NCBI GenBank assembly: GCA_014730235.1
Contig: WJIO01000278.1
Location: 1-10,103, forward strand
Source: Candidatus Poribacteria bacterium
Lineage (GTDB): Bacteria; Poribacteria; DTPJ01; WJIO01
Length of the DNA: 10,103 nt
Direction of reading: 5' to 3'
The position numbers and the translations under genes are program-made. Under the pieces are notes generated by a model. The model did no database searches. It was not told the origin of the DNA and worked only from the letters and a program-made list of their open reading frames with translations. This document shows positions 1 through 8,025 of this stretch, in pieces. The first letter of the stretch is position 1. The number at the start of each line of letters is the position of its first letter.

Positions 1-2400
1 ATCTTTATCCAGCATTATATTGTCTGCTTTTATATTTATAACACCACCATGCGGCATGGCTTGCTTTGCATTTATAACAAGGTTATTTATAACTTGACTT
101 ATCTGCCCCTGGTCTATTTCAACAGTCCAAAGATCGTCAGGTATCTGGAACTCGCATTTAACATTTGAACCTCTCAGGGTGAATATGGCCGAATCCCTCA
201 GGGTTTCATCAATTGTTGCGAATTCCTTAATAGGAGCGCCGCCCTTGGAAAATGCCAGCAACTGCTGGGTAAGGTGTTCGGCTTTTATACATGCCCTTTC
301 CGCAGACGCCAGTCTTTTCTCTTTTGCCTCAGGATCATCAATGGTTCTGGAGTAGGATATATTTCCCCATATACCTGTCAGTATATTATTAAAGTCATGG
401 GCGATACCCCCGGCAAGGGTTCCGATGGAATTGAGGGTATCAATTTTTCGCATTTCCTGTTCCATTTTTCGTTTTTCCGTTATATCCCTGGCTATTATCA
501 CCACACCGGAGATATTATTATTATTTCTTAAAGGATAGTATGATATACTAATATATCTTTGTTCATCAGTTTCCGGGTCTACATATAAACGTTCGTTTTG
601 TTCTGATTTCCCTGCTAAAGACCTATCCAGAGTTTCTTTTATTTTTATAAATTCTTTTTCTCCCACTACATCTTTAACGCTTTTTCCGGCCAATTTATCC
701 CAATTTATTTTATGATACTTTAGAAATGCGGAATTTGCAAAGAGATATTTGTAATTTCTATCTACGGCTGCAATTAGCTCATCCGAACTTTCTACTGCCC
801 ATTGGTATTGTTTTAGTTCCTCTTCAGTTTTCTTCAGTTCGGTAATATCCCTTGTAACTACCAGTATGGTCTCTATATCACCATCCTGATCAAATTCAGG
901 TATCATACGCGATTCCATGTGCTTTAGACCTTCAGGAGTGTCGACGCTAAATTCATACGACAGTTCCTGACCTGTATCAAATATCTGCTGGAATTTTTCT
1001 GTTCTATGCCTGCGAAAATCATCATCCAAACCTAATTCTTCATGAGTTTTTCCGATAAATTCTTCAACGGGAATATTGGTAATATCCTCTACAGCTTTAT
1101 TAATATACAGATGACGAAAATCCCTGTCAAATCGGGCGATAATGTCAGGTGAATTTTCGGATAATGCCCGGAATTCCTGCTGTCGTTGAAAAAGCTCTTC
1201 CAAAGCTTCTCTGCGATCTGTTGTATCTTTAACAAAGCCCAGGTAACGGTTTTCAGAAAGCTTAACAGCATCCACACGCCACCATCGCTTCTCGCCGCTT
1301 TTCCTCAAATAAGACACTTCACCACTGGAATATCCCTCTCGAACCATTTTTTGAAAAAGCTTCATGGCCCTGCTTGTGTCTTCCGAAGGTACCATATCGG
1401 GTATACTCATGTTTGTCAGTTCTTCTTTTGAGTAACCGGTAATCCTGCAAGCCGCCGGATTTACTTCGATATACTCACCTCTTTTGTTTGTTATAAAAAC
1501 GCCGTCCGGGGCGTTATCAATGTAGCTTCTGTATTTCCTTTCGCTCTGGCGCAATTCCTCTTCCATTCGCTTTCGACTGCTGATGTCTATGATAGATAAC
1601 ATCATACACACCGGTGCTTCGTTATCATCATAGACCATATTCGCCGATATATATACATCCAGAGTAATGCCATTTTTCTTAACGGCGATTAACTCACCTG
1701 TGGAACTTCCCAGGCTTCTACAGGCTTCCATAACTGCCGAAGCGGCTTTCCCCAGCAGCCAGAACTTTGTGGCCGGCTTACCTAACACCTCATCAACGCT
1801 TTTATATCCCCACATTTCCAAAAAAGCTTTATTTACATAGGTTAAATTACCTTCCAGATCAACAAAAGCGACTGCGCTTATGGAAGATTCAACGGCATAA
1901 TTCTTTAGACTTAATTCTTCTTCCTTTTGTTTGCGCTGGTTGATTTCCTTTTGTAATTCGGCTGTGCGTTCTTCAACCAGTTCCTCCAGGTGATGCTGGT
2001 ATTTTTTCAGTTCATCCTGAGTTTTTTTATAGCTAATAGCATTGGCCAGGGAGTTAGGTAAAGCAGTGAGATAGCTTTTGTGAATATCTTTAACCAGATA
2101 ATCATAAGCTCCAGACTTCATGGCCTGGACAGCGGTTTCCTCATCTCCCACACCAGTTACGACAATAACCGGTGTATCATCAAGGGTTTTCAAAATATCC
2201 AGAGCTATTCCGTCCCCCAGAGAGTAATCTGTTACAACAGCATCAAATTTTTCTGAATCAAGAATTTTTAAGGCTTCCTGGACAGATTTTGCGGTAACAT
2301 ACTCATAGGGAAACCTTTCCTTTTTTACAGATTTTTTAAATGCCATAAGATCAACTGCATCGTCTTCAACATAAAGTATTTTACCTGCAGAGCCTTCCAT
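1..2400 (-). CDS. Receiver-PAS(x4)-histidine kinase, soluble, 3' end beyond window
   Basis: Cytoplasmic multi-sensor histidine kinase; 800 residues are visible and the frame is still open at the left edge. A receiver domain occupies about residues 7-122, with acidic pocket E12/D13/D14, phosphoacceptor D58 (VVTDYS), T82 and K104. A charged coiled coil (about 123-165) leads into four PAS domains at about 165-275, 285-400, 403-521 and 530-645, each closing with a D-I/T-T/S-x-R/K type end. The kinase core carries the phosphorylatable H668 in GGIAHDFNNIL, followed by an ATPase N-box (NLVINAKQAMPHGG, 773-786). The G boxes lie outside the window, as would any C-terminal receiver, which kinases of this DFNN type often have. 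There is no signal peptide or membrane segment. The ATG at 2400 is preceded by a strong GGGAGGA at 6 nt. It lies 258 bp downstream of the propeller kinase, on the same strand. The ligands of the PAS domains cannot be predicted. Domain assignments are by eye from known family patterns. Confidence 0.93.
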   Translation of the reverse strand, partial: MEGSAGKILYVEDDAVDLMAFKKSVKKERFPYEYVTAKSVQEALKILDSEKFDAVVTDYSLGDGIALDILKTLDDTPVIVVTGVGDEETAVQAMKSGAYDYLVKDIHKSYLTALPNSLANAISYKKTQDELKKYQHHLEELVEERTAELQKEINQRKQKEEELSLKNYAVESSISAVAFVDLEGNLTYVNKAFLEMWGYKSVDEVLGKPATKFWLLGKAASAVMEACRSLGSSTGELIAVKKNGITLDVYISANMVYDDNEAPVCMMLSIIDISSRKRMEEELRQSERKYRSYIDNAPDGVFITNKRGEYIEVNPAACRITGYSKEELTNMSIPDMVPSEDTSRAMKLFQKMVREGYSSGEVSYLRKSGEKRWWRVDAVKLSENRYLGFVKDTTDRREALEELFQRQQEFRALSENSPDIIARFDRDFRHLYINKAVEDITNIPVEEFIGKTHEELGLDDDFRRHRTEKFQQIFDTGQELSYEFSVDTPEGLKHMESRMIPEFDQDGDIETILVVTRDITELKKTEEELKQYQWAVESSDELIAAVDRNYKYLFANSAFLKYHKINWDKLAGKSVKDVVGEKEFIKIKETLDRSLAGKSEQNERLYVDPETDEQRYISISYYPLRNNNNISGVVIIARDITEKRKMEQEMRKIDTLNSIGTLAGGIAHDFNNILTGIWGNISYSRTIDDPEAKEKRLASAERACIKAEHLTQQLLAFSKGGAPIKEFATIDETLRDSAIFTLRGSNVKCEFQIPDDLWTVEIDQGQISQVINNLVINAKQAMPHGGVINIKADNIMLDKD

Positions 2401-2658: not shown

Positions 2659-5600
2659 CTAACCCACATCTTTAACCTTTGGTAGAGTAAATATAAATTT
2701 GCAGCCTTCTCCCGGTTTGGATTGCAGCCATATTTCTCCACCATGTAGCTCGATAATCTTTTTAACTATTGTCAGACCAATACCTGTGCTTTCTTCCTCA
2801 TCCTTTGACGTTAATGTCTGGAATATTTGGAATATTTTAGTGTGATATTTCTCTTCAATACCAGGCCCATTATCCGTAACGCTTATTTTCCACTTATCTC
2901 CCATATCTTCAGATTCAATTTCAACAATTCCCTCTGGTTTATCCATAAATTTAACTGCATTATCCAGAAGATTTTGAAATACCTGCTGTATTCGTAATTT
3001 TTCCGCAAATATTTCAGGCAAAACATTCTTTATAGTGATTTCTATATTTCCCGTTGGATTGATCATCTCAATCTCTTCCCTGACAAGTTCATTGAGGTCA
3101 AACCACTCCTGATTCCCGAATACACGACCTACACGAGAATATTTAAGAATGCTGTCAATAAGATTATTCATCCTGTATGTTCGATTAATCAGCAGTTCCA
3201 TATGCTCTTTACCTTCTTGATCAAATTTATCCGAATAATCCTGATAAATCCAATGGGCCAGTTGGCTTATGGCTCTGAGAGGAGCTTTGAGGTCATGTGA
3301 AACTATATATGCAAATTCCCGGAGTTCTTTATTGACATTTTCCAGCTCAGCCGTCCTGGCGGCAACCCTTTGTTCTAATTCCTCGTTTAGCTTTTTGATC
3401 TCCTGTTCGGCTTCTTTTCTTCTTGTAATATCCAGACCATAAACATTTACATAATCAGCATCGACTACTGGAATAAAATTGAGGGCTATAATATGATTAT
3501 CGGCAGAAATTTCCAATAACTTTACCGATCCTGATTCAATAATTGCAGATATTAATTTTTGCCATTCCTCAGACAGCTTTTCATTTAAACTACCACCCCA
3601 ATCTTTTATCAGAGGCAAAGCGGCTTGATTGGCATAAATAACCGTTCCATCTTCATTTATGCGTATTACAGGGAAAGGGTTTTCGCTGGGAAATTTTGCC
3701 AGATTATTTATCTGTTCCCGGGTCTTTTTACGCTCGGTAATATCCCTTGCGATTCCCCACATTCCTTTGGGATTTCCCTCTTCATCTCTGATAAGATAAG
3801 AATTGAGTTCCACAGGAAATACTGTCCCGTCTTTCCTTATGTATTCTTTTTCATAAATACCCGAATATCCCTCCCCGATTATCTTTTCTTCCACCAGTCT
3901 GGCTTCGTATTCATGCCATTTTTCCGGGGTTAATTGGGGATAGGTTAAATTGCGCAGTTCATCTATAGTGTAACCCAGCATCTCCTCATAAGCCGGATTG
4001 CAGTCAACGAATACGCCATCCATATCACAGTAAACGATGCCGTCTAGCATGTTCTCATAAAGCCGACGGTAGCTGAGTTCCGCGTTTCTATGTGCTTCTT
4101 CGGCTTCTTTTTGCTTAACCTGTAACCTGATGTCGTGCAATGCCAGGGCAATGTCATTTACCACTTCTCTAAAAAGAGCTATCTCTTCCGGATCTTTTAC
4201 TGCCTCTTCAGGTGCAGATACAGACATAATACCATAGATACTTCCATCGTATTCTATACGCATAATCATTCGACCTTTCCCGGCGCGATATTCTGATATC
4301 GGGCAACCGTTACAGTCAACAGCCCATGATTTACTGATCACATCGGGATTATCTTTAATAGCTTCCTCAATGCATAATGGATAAAAATCCTTACCCATCT
4401 GTTCCAGAACTTTTTTTGCCCTATCATCGAAACCGGCACATGTAATTGACAAAAATTCGTGTTTATCATCAAGAAGCATTATCCAGGCATCATAATACCC
4501 GCGGGTTTCAATAAGCGTTTCACAGGCTTCCCGGGTAAGTTGAGCCTGATTCTTTTCCCTGAATATAAGCTGATTTACGTTTCTTATGGCCTTAAGCACA
4601 TTATTCAGGTGCTCTATTCTTTCCTGATCCATTTTTCGCCGGGTTATATCCAGAGCAGAGCAAATTATACCATGTATATTACTGGTTTCATCAAACATTA
4701 CAGCTCCAGAAAAAAGCACCGGTATACGCTTTTTATCCTTTGATATATATGTCTTTTCCAGGTTGTTAATACGACTATTTTCCATCAGATCATAAATTTC
4801 CCTGGCTTCCAGTTTCCCATCATCGGATAATATGGAATTAATTGACTTACCAACAATTTCATCTTCCTCATACCCCAACATATCCAGGGCTGTCTGATTG
4901 ATCGTCTTTATAGTTGAATCCAGATCAATAACAATTAATGCTACAGGCATAGATTTGATGATACTATCTATGTAATATTTTGCCGCTTTTGTTATCCTGA
5001 GTTCCTCAGTCCTTTCACTTATCAACTGATCCAGTTTATTTATAGTTTTGTCTTTGGGATCGGTGATAATCTCGAACTCCACCTCTGCCGCTTTGATGGA
5101 TTGTATAAAATCTTTATTAATTGCCAGCACTTTAAATTTGTAATTACCGATTGGAAGCTCTCTATATGTAACTGAGTTATCCCATGTGGAATGCCAATCT
5201 TCATCATGGCCTTCCAGAATATACTTATACCTGATCCTGTTTGTTTTATGGCTTATGGTATGATAGTCAATTCTTACACTGTTTATACTTTCAGATATTT
5301 TTATTTCATTGAATTCCGAGTATATTTTACCTGCTTCTATATTGTCAATTCTAACAGAAAGGGGTTCCGCCTCGTAATCCGGTATGTATGCGCATATCCC
5401 CCGGTAAGTTGATATTATCATACTACCGTCTGGATTCTCAACCACGCCGGTTACCGAATTACTGGGGAGTCCGTCATTCATTGTCAACACCTGAAAATCG
5501 CTTCCGTTAAACCTGCTTAACCCACCGCCAAGGGTAGCGAGCCACAAAAAGCCTTTACTATCCCGAAATATACTCTGAATCGAATTACCCATGAGCCCAT

Positions 5601-7122
5601 TGGATTTATCATAGTTGGTAAATTTTTCGCCATCATAGCAGCTTAAACCCACCCGGGTTCCAAACCACATATTGCCGTTATTATCTTCTGCGATACATAC
5701 AACACGATTATCAATCAGTCCATTCTCCTTGGTAAACCTGTAAAATTGATCCTTATCATAACACTTTACCCCTCCACCATGCCATGCTCCCATCCATAGT
5801 CTGTTGTGGGTGTCCTGGAATATTGTGGTTGCGGTGCTGACTGGTTTTCCGCTTAACCTTGTAAAACTTTTAAATTTTTCACCATCATACCTTGTTAAGC
5901 ATCCTTTTGTTCCTATCCATATATGGCTCTCTGAATCTTCAATTATCTCCCAGACATGATTACCTATAAATTCATCTTTTACTTCGGATTGCCTGGATTT
6001 TATTTCCCTCATATCCTCTATGCTGTCATATTTAAGGAAACCTTTATTTGTGCCGACCCAGAAGCGATCTTTGGAATCGTGCAGTAAATCGTATATATTA
6101 TATTCAAAATTATAATGGTGAATGTTTTTACCATCGTAATTAGAAAGGATGTTTCCTGTTCCCCACCATATAGAATCGTCATTATCCTTTATGATTATTT
6201 CGTTTACTGGTTCAGAGGAAATTGTTTTTATACTTCCGGGCTCAAAATGAGTAATACCCCCGTTTCCACATGCAAACCAGAAACTTCCCTCAAAATCCTG
6301 GGTTATACTGAATACATTGTTATGGATCAGACCATCTTCGGTGGTAAAATTTACAAAATCACTTTCATGGCAGTGACTAACACCCCTGTCTGTACCGAAC
6401 CACATATTCCCGTTTGAATCCTCAAAAATACAGTGTATAAATTCACTCGTCAAACCTTGTTTTGTTGCATAATATTCGTTTTTATCATCATTATGTTTTA
6501 CTAAACCGTGACCCCATGTTCCTATCCATATGTTGTTTTTGCTATCTGTGAATAAATCGGAAATACTAACAGAATCCCAACCGAATTCCCCGGTTATATC
6601 TCTGAATATTTCTTCATCGTAAATTATCAGCTTTTCCTTTGAACCGAGCCAAATTCTACCTTTATCATCCTGGGTAATTGCGTAAATTCCAGTACCTTTC
6701 AAATCTTTTTTAAATTCGTGGAATTCATTTCCATCATAATATGAAAGCCCTTCCCTGGCCCCGATCCAGATAATATCCTTTTCATCTTCATATATACAAA
6801 TGATACTACCGGCTGTCACGAAATTTTTATCCTTAAAGCTAATAAATTCCTGACCATTGTGAAAATATAATCCTTCATCAGTTCCTATCCAGATATTACC
6901 TGAACTGTCATGGTACATGCTTCTTACGCCCATTTCCGATATTCCCACTTTATCATTAAGTCTTTTGAATGTATAACCATCGTATATAGTGATACCATTC
7001 AGATTACCGATCCATATATTTTTATTATTATCTTCTAAGATATACCTACAGCTATGCCCCAAACTATCAATATCGTCAAAAGATTGCCAGAGCCCTGTTT
7101 TCTTTTGTATTTTATGGTGCAT
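2659..7122 (-). CDS. Two-propeller (Reg_prop/Y_Y_Y) PAS-GAF sensor histidine kinase, no membrane segment
   Basis: Sensor histidine kinase of 1487 residues. About 14 Reg_prop-like blades with the D-x-x-G-x-(I/M/L)-W-(I/F)-G-T pattern fill about residues 9-589, enough for two seven-bladed propellers. A Y_Y_Y domain (590-686) follows, then a short coiled coil, PAS (715-829), GAF (844-999), PAS (1016-1131), PAS (1137-1234), a second coiled coil, HisKA with H1276 (SHDLKAPLRAI) and HATPase_c with N-box N1388, G1 box DNGPGI (1417-1422) and G2 box GIGL (1447-1450). All catalytic motifs are intact. In Bacteroidetes hybrid two-component sensors this propeller pair is periplasmic and a transmembrane helix follows Y_Y_Y. 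Here neither a signal peptide nor any hydrophobic helix is seen, so the protein is probably cytoplasmic. It also lacks a receiver and an output domain. The ATG at 7122 is chosen because GGGAG lies 7 nt upstream; a TTG six codons earlier lacks such a site. It starts 39 bp after the D-aminopeptidase and is probably cotranscribed with it. The ligand is unknown. Confidence 0.95.
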   Translation of the reverse strand: MHHKIQKKTGLWQSFDDIDSLGHSCRYILEDNNKNIWIGNLNGITIYDGYTFKRLNDKVGISEMGVRSMYHDSSGNIWIGTDEGLYFHNGQEFISFKDKNFVTAGSIICIYEDEKDIIWIGAREGLSYYDGNEFHEFKKDLKGTGIYAITQDDKGRIWLGSKEKLIIYDEEIFRDITGEFGWDSVSISDLFTDSKNNIWIGTWGHGLVKHNDDKNEYYATKQGLTSEFIHCIFEDSNGNMWFGTDRGVSHCHESDFVNFTTEDGLIHNNVFSITQDFEGSFWFACGNGGITHFEPGSIKTISSEPVNEIIIKDNDDSIWWGTGNILSNYDGKNIHHYNFEYNIYDLLHDSKDRFWVGTNKGFLKYDSIEDMREIKSRQSEVKDEFIGNHVWEIIEDSESHIWIGTKGCLTRYDGEKFKSFTRLSGKPVSTATTIFQDTHNRLWMGAWHGGGVKCYDKDQFYRFTKENGLIDNRVVCIAEDNNGNMWFGTRVGLSCYDGEKFTNYDKSNGLMGNSIQSIFRDSKGFLWLATLGGGLSRFNGSDFQVLTMNDGLPSNSVTGVVENPDGSMIISTYRGICAYIPDYEAEPLSVRIDNIEAGKIYSEFNEIKISESINSVRIDYHTISHKTNRIRYKYILEGHDEDWHSTWDNSVTYRELPIGNYKFKVLAINKDFIQSIKAAEVEFEIITDPKDKTINKLDQLISERTEELRITKAAKYYIDSIIKSMPVALIVIDLDSTIKTINQTALDMLGYEEDEIVGKSINSILSDDGKLEAREIYDLMENSRINNLEKTYISKDKKRIPVLFSGAVMFDETSNIHGIICSALDITRRKMDQERIEHLNNVLKAIRNVNQLIFREKNQAQLTREACETLIETRGYYDAWIMLLDDKHEFLSITCAGFDDRAKKVLEQMGKDFYPLCIEEAIKDNPDVISKSWAVDCNGCPISEYRAGKGRMIMRIEYDGSIYGIMSVSAPEEAVKDPEEIALFREVVNDIALALHDIRLQVKQKEAEEAHRNAELSYRRLYENMLDGIVYCDMDGVFVDCNPAYEEMLGYTIDELRNLTYPQLTPEKWHEYEARLVEEKIIGEGYSGIYEKEYIRKDGTVFPVELNSYLIRDEEGNPKGMWGIARDITERKKTREQINNLAKFPSENPFPVIRINEDGTVIYANQAALPLIKDWGGSLNEKLSEEWQKLISAIIESGSVKLLEISADNHIIALNFIPVVDADYVNVYGLDITRRKEAEQEIKKLNEELEQRVAARTAELENVNKELREFAYIVSHDLKAPLRAISQLAHWIYQDYSDKFDQEGKEHMELLINRTYRMNNLIDSILKYSRVGRVFGNQEWFDLNELVREEIEMINPTGNIEITIKNVLPEIFAEKLRIQQVFQNLLDNAVKFMDKPEGIVEIESEDMGDKWKISVTDNGPGIEEKYHTKIFQIFQTLTSKDEEESTGIGLTIVKKIIELHGGEIWLQSKPGEGCKFIFTLPKVKDVG

Positions 7123-7129
7123 ATTGCTT

Positions 7130-7134
7130 CTCCC
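7130..7134 (-). promoter_or_regulatory. Ribosome binding site of propeller kinase
   Basis: The minus strand reads AAAGGGAGAA, with GGGAG 7 nt before the ATG at 7122. It lies inside the extra six codons that a TTG start at 7140 would add, which argues for the shorter protein. Confidence 0.7.
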
Positions 7135-7161
7135 TTTCAACTTAGAGATAATATCATTAAT

Positions 7162-7941
7162 TTATATCCGCAGATCACAAATATTGTCACTCCTGATTAT
7201 TACAGTTCGTTCGTCTATCTTTTCTGCTCTTGGGTCTTTGAGATAACCTTCAATACTTATGCCCTCAAGAACCCGGATTTCCTGTCCATAGGGTGGGTCC
7301 ATTTTCACCGGTGGGATAGATTTAATATTTTTGCACGCTTTGGAAGCTGTCTTGCGGATAAGCTTCTGAGCCTTTTTGGGGGAAAGATGAATGGCCAGTT
7401 CCCTTCCCAGCCCTTCCTTTACAGCCGCGCCATATATACCCGGCACCAGTTCCTTGGCTTCGTCAACGGCCTTATCGTCACCGGATATAAACACAGTGGG
7501 AACGCCGAAAGTTCCGGCCATAATAGCCCTTGCACCGAATTCGCCTACAAACATGCCGTTAATCTTGTAATACTCGATACTTTTGGATGAATATGTATGA
7601 CACAGGGGAGCGGCTTCTGTTCCGGCCATGGCGTGCTGACCTACAAAGAACAGGGCGTCGAAGGTTTCATCCAGGTAATAAGGTGGACGGATGGGTCCCC
7701 GGGCAATTAACTTTGCTTTCTTATGAAATTCCAGTGGATCAATTCCACCGCTGCCATGACCATCCCATACAATAACTTCTGCATCTTTATCTACATCCAA
7801 TATGCCATCTACAGCCGCATTAACCTCCCATGTAAGTAGTTTCATCGAAATGGCCTTTGTCTCGGGTGTTACATCCCGGGTTTGATCAAACCGGGAGATC
7901 ATGGCCGGGCCCTCCAGATCTGTAATGATATATATTTTCAT
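7162..7941 (-). CDS. dppA: M55 family D-aminopeptidase (DppA-like)
   Basis: Zinc-dependent aminopeptidase of 259 residues, close to the 274 of Bacillus subtilis DppA. That enzyme forms a decameric ring and removes N-terminal D-amino acids from short peptides such as D-Ala-D-Ala. The metal ligands of the family are all in place: D8 and E10 (TDLEG), H62 (WDGHG), H103 (GQHAMAG) and E134 (VGEFG). C114 (PLCHTYSS) sits where the DppA nucleophile Cys115 is expected. No signal peptide is present, so it acts in the cytoplasm, probably on imported peptides or recycled cell-wall peptides. The ATG at 7941 matches the usual family N-terminus (MKIYIITDLEGP) and has AAAGGA 8 nt upstream; an in-frame ATG at 7980 would add 13 residues with no family match. 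No peptide transporter genes lie beside it, unlike the B. subtilis dpp operon. Its TAA is in the same frame as the kinase that follows. Exact substrate is unproven. Confidence 0.93.
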   Translation of the reverse strand: MKIYIITDLEGPAMISRFDQTRDVTPETKAISMKLLTWEVNAAVDGILDVDKDAEVIVWDGHGSGGIDPLEFHKKAKLIARGPIRPPYYLDETFDALFFVGQHAMAGTEAAPLCHTYSSKSIEYYKINGMFVGEFGARAIMAGTFGVPTVFISGDDKAVDEAKELVPGIYGAAVKEGLGRELAIHLSPKKAQKLIRKTASKACKNIKSIPPVKMDPPYGQEIRVLEGISIEGYLKDPRAEKIDERTVIIRSDNICDLRI

Positions 7942-7949
7942 GATGCTTT

Positions 7950-7955
7950 TCCTTT
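7950..7955 (-). promoter_or_regulatory. Ribosome binding site of D-aminopeptidase
   Basis: The minus strand reads AAAGGA, 8 nt before the ATG at 7941. It supports the start that matches the M55 family N-terminus over the upstream in-frame ATG at 7980. Confidence 0.6.
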
Positions 7956-8025
7956 CAGCTATTTGGTATAAACCAAGCATAAAATTTATGTCCCTATGTT
8001 ATTGCGAAGAACGGGGTAACAAATA

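Follow-up and report, generated by a model that had tools for sequence, protein, structure and literature searches.

A stretch of 10,103 nucleotides from a Candidatus Poribacteria bacterium (contig WJIO01000278.1 of assembly GCA_014730235.1; hereafter, the window) carries on its reverse strand an open reading frame, 2659..7122, for a soluble sensor histidine kinase of 1487 amino acids. In order, the protein comprises two seven-bladed Reg_prop propellers, a Y_Y_Y domain, a charged helix, PAS, GAF and PAS domains, a PAS-like segment, and the HisKA and HATPase domains, and by motif reading its H, N, G1 and G2 kinase motifs are all intact. Hydropathy, weighed against internal controls, together with homology and the DNA-binding outputs of relatives, supports a cytoplasmic kinase with no membrane segment in its chain. 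The best explanation, to which we give a probability of roughly 0.62 with its whole proposed mechanism included, is a cytoplasmic kinase using the double Reg_prop and Y_Y_Y sensor otherwise known from exported, membrane-anchored regulators. The original prediction, which placed the kinase at 4978-7122, covers the sensor and linker (residues 1-715); the gene itself continues to 2659.

As that prediction had proposed, neither a signal peptide nor a membrane helix is apparent: within the first 45 residues the best 12-residue hydropathy is 0.38, and no 19-residue window anywhere in the protein rises above a Kyte-Doolittle value of 1.40. This maximum falls at residues 720-738, which are the start of the first PAS domain and not a membrane helix. 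The segment following Y_Y_Y, also foreseen as charged and free of a hydrophobic helix, is 40% charged over residues 686-720, with a helix modelled at residues 689-711. N-terminal hydropathy does not exceed 1.47 in nine complete soluble proteins and does not fall below 2.26 in 17 membrane relatives bearing a signal peptide, so that the two ranges do not overlap; Clostridia, Spirochaetota and Pseudomonadota supply four of the 17. At the junction, soluble proteins keep at least three charged or strongly polar residues in any 19-residue window, and membrane proteins have 0-2 in their best window. Four non-Bacteroidota controls from a plasmid search (Paraclostridium, Treponema, Rhizobium and Agarilytica) all carry a hydrophobic signal at the N-terminus; two of them also have a clear transmembrane segment above threshold further on, and the best later stretch of the other two is weaker (1.47 and 1.46).

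The genome of the window (G000, a draft in 451 contigs) offers further controls, found by a Reg_prop search in which the window locus is C215. One of them, C266, is a canonical hybrid two-component system (HTCS) protein with signal peptide, propellers, Y_Y_Y, transmembrane helix, HisKA, HATPase, receiver and AraC domains. Two more propeller proteins bear a transmembrane helix, C349 with a signal peptide and C117 with an ambiguous start position, and C74 is a second soluble paralogue composed of propellers, Y_Y_Y, PAS, HisKA_2 and HATPase. Soluble and membrane forms thus coexist in G000, and the hydropathy criteria therefore separate two kinds of protein within one genome.

An AlphaFold2 model of residues 1-712, computed with 14 aligned sequences, reached a mean pLDDT of 88.4 and a pTM of 0.80, and contains the two propellers, Y_Y_Y and the helix at 689-711. 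Among PDB entries it most resembles the sensors of BT4663 (TM-score 0.74) and BT3049; the VIA Z is ~32 over ~660 residues (4a2m/3v9f), and the alignment ends at model residue 687-688, just ahead of the helix. Sequence search concurs (4a2l, E 9e-54). The predicted structure hence agrees with the early reading, with a fold that matches BT4663 and a charged helix where a membrane segment would start. The same program, applied to a σ54 form (see below) alone, gave a pLDDT of 36 and this model was not used.

The topology is settled by relatives in the phylum, whose genomes are likewise drafts. When 58 genomes were searched with the full-length protein, G055 yielded a close soluble relative, 33% identical over residues 7-709. 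In soluble members from G057 and from G016 (C157), Y_Y_Y is followed directly by a σ54 AAA+ domain and a Fis-type helix-turn-helix (HTH). These forms must be cytoplasmic, because they are proteins that work on DNA and have no membrane helix, and they settle that the Reg_prop/Y_Y_Y module can sit in the cytoplasm. Both (L075 3171-6365 and L076 1187-4327) are single-protein regulators with a double propeller, Y_Y_Y, σ54 activator and Fis HTH; the σ54 motif is the canonical GAFTGA in G016 and GTFTGA in G057. A further propeller-σ54 gene, L091 4718-6909 (G063:C700), has a disrupted frame and is decayed or misassembled. Taken together, the lack of signals for export or membrane insertion, a fold like that of BT4663, the relatives of the same layout and the soluble σ54/Fis fusions uphold the proposal of a wholly cytoplasmic 14-blade sensor.

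The kinase outputs found on soluble sensors are HisKA in the 1487-residue protein, HisKA_2 in C74, and HisKA_3 in G055 and in three proteins of G061; the non-kinase outputs are σ54 AAA with Fis (G057, G016), SpoIIE/PP2C (G063:C338) and an AAA ATPase (G063:C725). More kinases or kinase-receiver hybrids on soluble sensors occur in G063 and G064, where most 5′ ends run off the contigs. The fusion to PAS and GAF modules, to which attention had been drawn, is real in this protein, but the soluble layout is not confined to PAS/GAF kinases and comes with six or more kinds of output. Two of the G061 kinases form a tandem pair (L090 4418-7714 and 7864-11127, G061:C120), with the third on another contig (L093). 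L102 1-4806 (G063:C229), whose 5′ end lies beyond its contig, reads TPR-propeller-Y_Y_Y-HisKA-HATPase-receiver with no transmembrane segment after Y_Y_Y. In G063, two propeller-AAA paralogues, one soluble (L092 4911-7769) and one membrane-anchored (L103 3635-5896), share 45% identity across 774 columns as well as the AAA output, and differ at the junction; judged by their sequences, they are a natural before-and-after pair.

The junction itself distinguishes the two kinds. In membrane forms, Y_Y_Y gives way through 'PP(F/W)Y' or the like to a transmembrane helix; in soluble forms a charged helix follows instead, mostly introduced by 'DPR(D/E)' or a variant of it. A profile (A1) built from five soluble junctions was searched across all 84 genomes of the phylum, and matches extending at least to column 70 occur in 16 proteins of seven genomes (G000, G016, G055, G057, G061, G063 and G064) and five family groups; in membrane forms, nearly all matches end at about column 58. 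Outside the phylum, the sampling covered Bacteroidota, plasmids and viral contigs. Among the matches listed, none extends past column 64 in 301 Bacteroidota genomes (5 + 296), where the scan of the 296 took matches with E <1e-12 and scored up to 19 candidates per genome, so that rare cases could escape. A single scan of genome contigs returned only five Bacteroidota loci, and the viral contigs searched held no relative.

In a tree built from the last blade and Y_Y_Y (54 rows and 127 columns of a short domain, junction columns excluded, root not fixed), the 1487-residue protein belongs to an all-soluble clade with nine members, drawn from G000, G055, G061 and G063; the clade has support 97/80 and adjoins one membrane protein. 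A single origin of all 16 soluble rows is rejected (p-AU 0.0024), which implies several soluble lineages; for this test L116, labelled soluble in the tree, was counted as membrane, its transmembrane segment being weakly hydrophobic (1.25). The distinct clade that homologues of the same layout had been suggested to form does exist as these nine sequences, but the other soluble members arose separately. The membrane layout has probably been lost repeatedly within the phylum, which is the simplest reading of these sequences as membrane forms dominate the sample. A glycine-rich loop in blade 11 was considered as a signature of the clade and dropped, being common in it and not unique to it.

How such a kinase might work can be sketched from BT4663. 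This dimeric sensor changes conformation on binding disaccharides at the entry faces of its two propellers (PMC5121618), and its Y_Y_Y acts as a spacer from the membrane and as a dimerisation element (PMC5121618). With a cytoplasmic topology, the input would be a ligand inside the cell or a partner protein. We propose that the kinase dimerises through Y_Y_Y and the following helix, and that its propeller faces bind a small molecule from inside the cell, possibly a sugar or a derivative of one, much as those of BT4663 bind disaccharides. By analogy, the ligand would rearrange the Y_Y_Y dimer and move helix 689-711, which would act on the PAS-GAF-PAS modules, themselves possibly contributing a second cue, and so switch the predicted autophosphorylation of His1276. 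The phosphate would then pass to the receiver of the downstream kinase, in a two-kinase cascade. Such phosphotransfer is likely, by analogy, because a receiver-PAS-kinase gene adjoins both the 1487-residue kinase gene and C74, the latter being followed by a receiver-PAS-PAS-HisKA-HATPase kinase gene. Finally, the module would have been freed from the membrane several times in the phylum, a helix replacing the transmembrane junction.

Some observations weigh against this picture: the receivers encoded after C215 and C74 resemble each other only remotely, the neighbourhood of the kinase gene is not common to C74, and the NCBIfam matches of the neighbouring genes all fall under their cut-offs. 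Upstream lie genes for a GHMP-family kinase, a zinc alcohol dehydrogenase and an M55 peptidase, which suggests small-molecule metabolism, though nothing specific.

Among other explanations, the one that survives best, which we hold possible at perhaps one chance in four, is that the protein is soluble but its propellers are a docking platform for a partner such as a transporter or a cytoplasmic complex, so that the signal passes between proteins and no small ligand is involved. Propellers are common protein-binding scaffolds, the sensor is attached to very different outputs, and the single propellers of the model match, at the level of fold only, the WD40 scaffolds WDR5 and TLE1. However, the module as a whole fits the carbohydrate-sensing BT4663 far more fully (660 residues) than its single propellers fit WD40 ones (~275 residues). 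We find it improbable that the propellers are a structural remnant and that the PAS and GAF modules do all the sensing: three PAS-like segments and a GAF domain with a CxxC do stand between sensor and kinase, but the blades are intact and conserved, and Pfam sees no PAS or GAF in the σ54, SpoIIE and AAA relatives, in which the propellers are the sole input seen.

There remains the gene start, since an error near 7100-7165 hiding an export signal had been named as a threat to the prediction. The ATG is preceded by AAAGGGAG, the N-terminus reads MHHKIQKKTGLWQSFDD, and the Trp of the first blade is residue 12. The frame is closed upstream by a TAA at 7162-7164, the stop codon of an M55 peptidase gene that is complete (its match spans Pfam positions 1-256 of 264), and stops are also present in the remaining two frames. 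A longer N-terminus therefore has no room, as this stop lies 39 nucleotides before the ATG and belongs to a complete gene. Eight relatives encoded elsewhere, on other contigs or other genomes, likewise have only 7-21 residues ahead of the first-blade Trp, which makes a sequencing error very unlikely. That a frameshift or assembly error in a draft of 451 contigs conceals an ordinary membrane sensor is thus scarcely credible, the more so since the transmembrane segment after Y_Y_Y is absent too and both missing elements would need to be errors.

Table 1. Features of the kinase gene and of its neighbours, in window coordinates.
Feature	Position	Strand	Basis
Whole gene, soluble propeller sensor histidine kinase, 1487 aa	2659..7122	-	Open reading frame and Pfam
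Residues 1-9, polar N-terminus without signal peptide	7096..7122	-	Hydropathy 0.38 vs >=2.26 in secreted relatives
Propeller 1, residues ~10-302, 7 Reg_prop blades	6217..7095	-	Pfam PF07494; AlphaFold2 strands
Propeller 2, residues ~309-585, 7 blades	5368..6198	-	PF07494; AlphaFold2 strands; PDB 4a2m/4a2l over model 7-688
Y_Y_Y, residues ~586-687 (Pfam match 627-685)	5062..5367	-	PF07495, E 2.1e-14
Charged linker helix, residues 689-711, begins at DPKD; stands at the transmembrane position of membrane relatives	4990..5058	-	AlphaFold2 and composition
PAS domain 1, residues ~715-835	4618..4980	-	Pfam PAS; hydropathy of the protein peaks at its start
GAF, residues 859-996, CxxC at 937-940	4135..4548	-	PF13185, E 2.9e-5, under Pfam cut-off
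PAS domain 2, residues 1018-1130	3733..4071	-	PF13426/PF00989
Putative PAS-like segment 3, residues ~1140-1236	3415..3705	-	Sequence reading alone
HisKA, residues 1267-1331, phospho-acceptor His1276 in SHDLKAPL	3130..3324	-	PF00512, motif position
HATPase_c, residues 1375-1482, N (LLDNAVKF), G1 (DNGPGI) and G2 (GIGL) boxes	2677..3000	-	PF02518, E 6.9e-30
Receiver-PASx4-HisKA-HATPase kinase gene, receiver domain at ~2026-2400, cut by contig end, likely phosphorelay partner	1..2400	-	Pfam; same order after C74
Complete M55 D-aminopeptidase gene, stop closes upstream frame	7162..7980	-	PF04951

In the GAF domain, at window positions 4303-4383, C917 and the CxxC at 937-940 might make up a metal or redox site. 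Elsewhere in the same genome, L032 2711-7141 (G000:C349) joins a secreted, membrane-anchored propeller and Y_Y_Y sensor to a cytoplasmic AAA_35 ATPase in place of the kinase, an uncommon receptor-ATPase layout. Two other loci, L035 (from 1906 onward) and L036 (G000:C261 and C271), encode signal-peptide proteins of ~1400 residues made up almost wholly of Reg_prop-like blades (20-25 motifs), in which no output domain was seen.

The nearest known systems are the HTCS, with which the protein shares two seven-bladed Reg_prop propellers and Y_Y_Y followed by a histidine kinase with HisKA and HATPase_c (BT4663, PDB 4a2l/4a2m; BT3049, 3v9f; BT4673, 3ott/3va6). The HTCS of Bacteroidota carry a signal peptide and, behind Y_Y_Y, a transmembrane helix; they usually also end in a receiver and an AraC domain (PMC3243724). 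The 1487-residue protein lacks all of these and adds PAS/GAF modules; Pfam finds no C-terminal receiver or AraC-type domain in its chain, and both are present in C266. It is therefore not an HTCS, but a new, soluble variant of the HTCS sensor module. ReeS of Clostridium perfringens is likewise an orphan kinase with propellers and Y_Y_Y that lacks both a receiver and a DNA-binding domain, but two transmembrane helices flank its sensor (PMC3762733). Soluble PAS/GAF histidine kinases are alike in being cytoplasmic, with several PAS/GAF modules, HisKA and HATPase_c, and differ from our protein in its 690-residue input of double propeller and Y_Y_Y. Cytoplasmic propellers also serve as the input of signalling proteins in WD40 fusions to ATPases and kinases (Apaf-1-like), although these belong to another propeller family and have no Y_Y_Y, and the structural match to them is at fold level only.

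The characterised Reg_prop/Y_Y_Y sensors met in the open-access papers searched are exported or membrane-anchored (PMC3243724, PMC3762733, PMC8534201); the literature places such sensors outside the cell or in the periplasm (PMC3243724, PMC10269533) and terms Y_Y_Y extracellular (PMC10269533). We found no cytoplasmic one described in the open-access literature, which is weak evidence of novelty as subscription papers lay mostly outside the search. On balance we lean towards a so far unrecognised intracellular class of these sensors, in which the module has abandoned the membrane on several occasions within a single phylum, through the exchange of the transmembrane junction for a helix, and drives kinases, σ54 transcription, PP2C-type phosphatase and AAA ATPases inside the cell. 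If this is true, the same sensor architecture serves both sides of the membrane, and automatic annotation that labels every Reg_prop/Y_Y_Y sensor as periplasmic is wrong for the soluble forms. These forms indicate that signalling from Y_Y_Y to the output is independent of a membrane helix, and the transduction mechanism, hard to approach with membrane forms, becomes testable with a soluble full-length protein. The σ54 fusions, as one-protein switches, are handy for ligand discovery by reporter assay. The bacteria of this phylum probably use the module to sense something intracellular.

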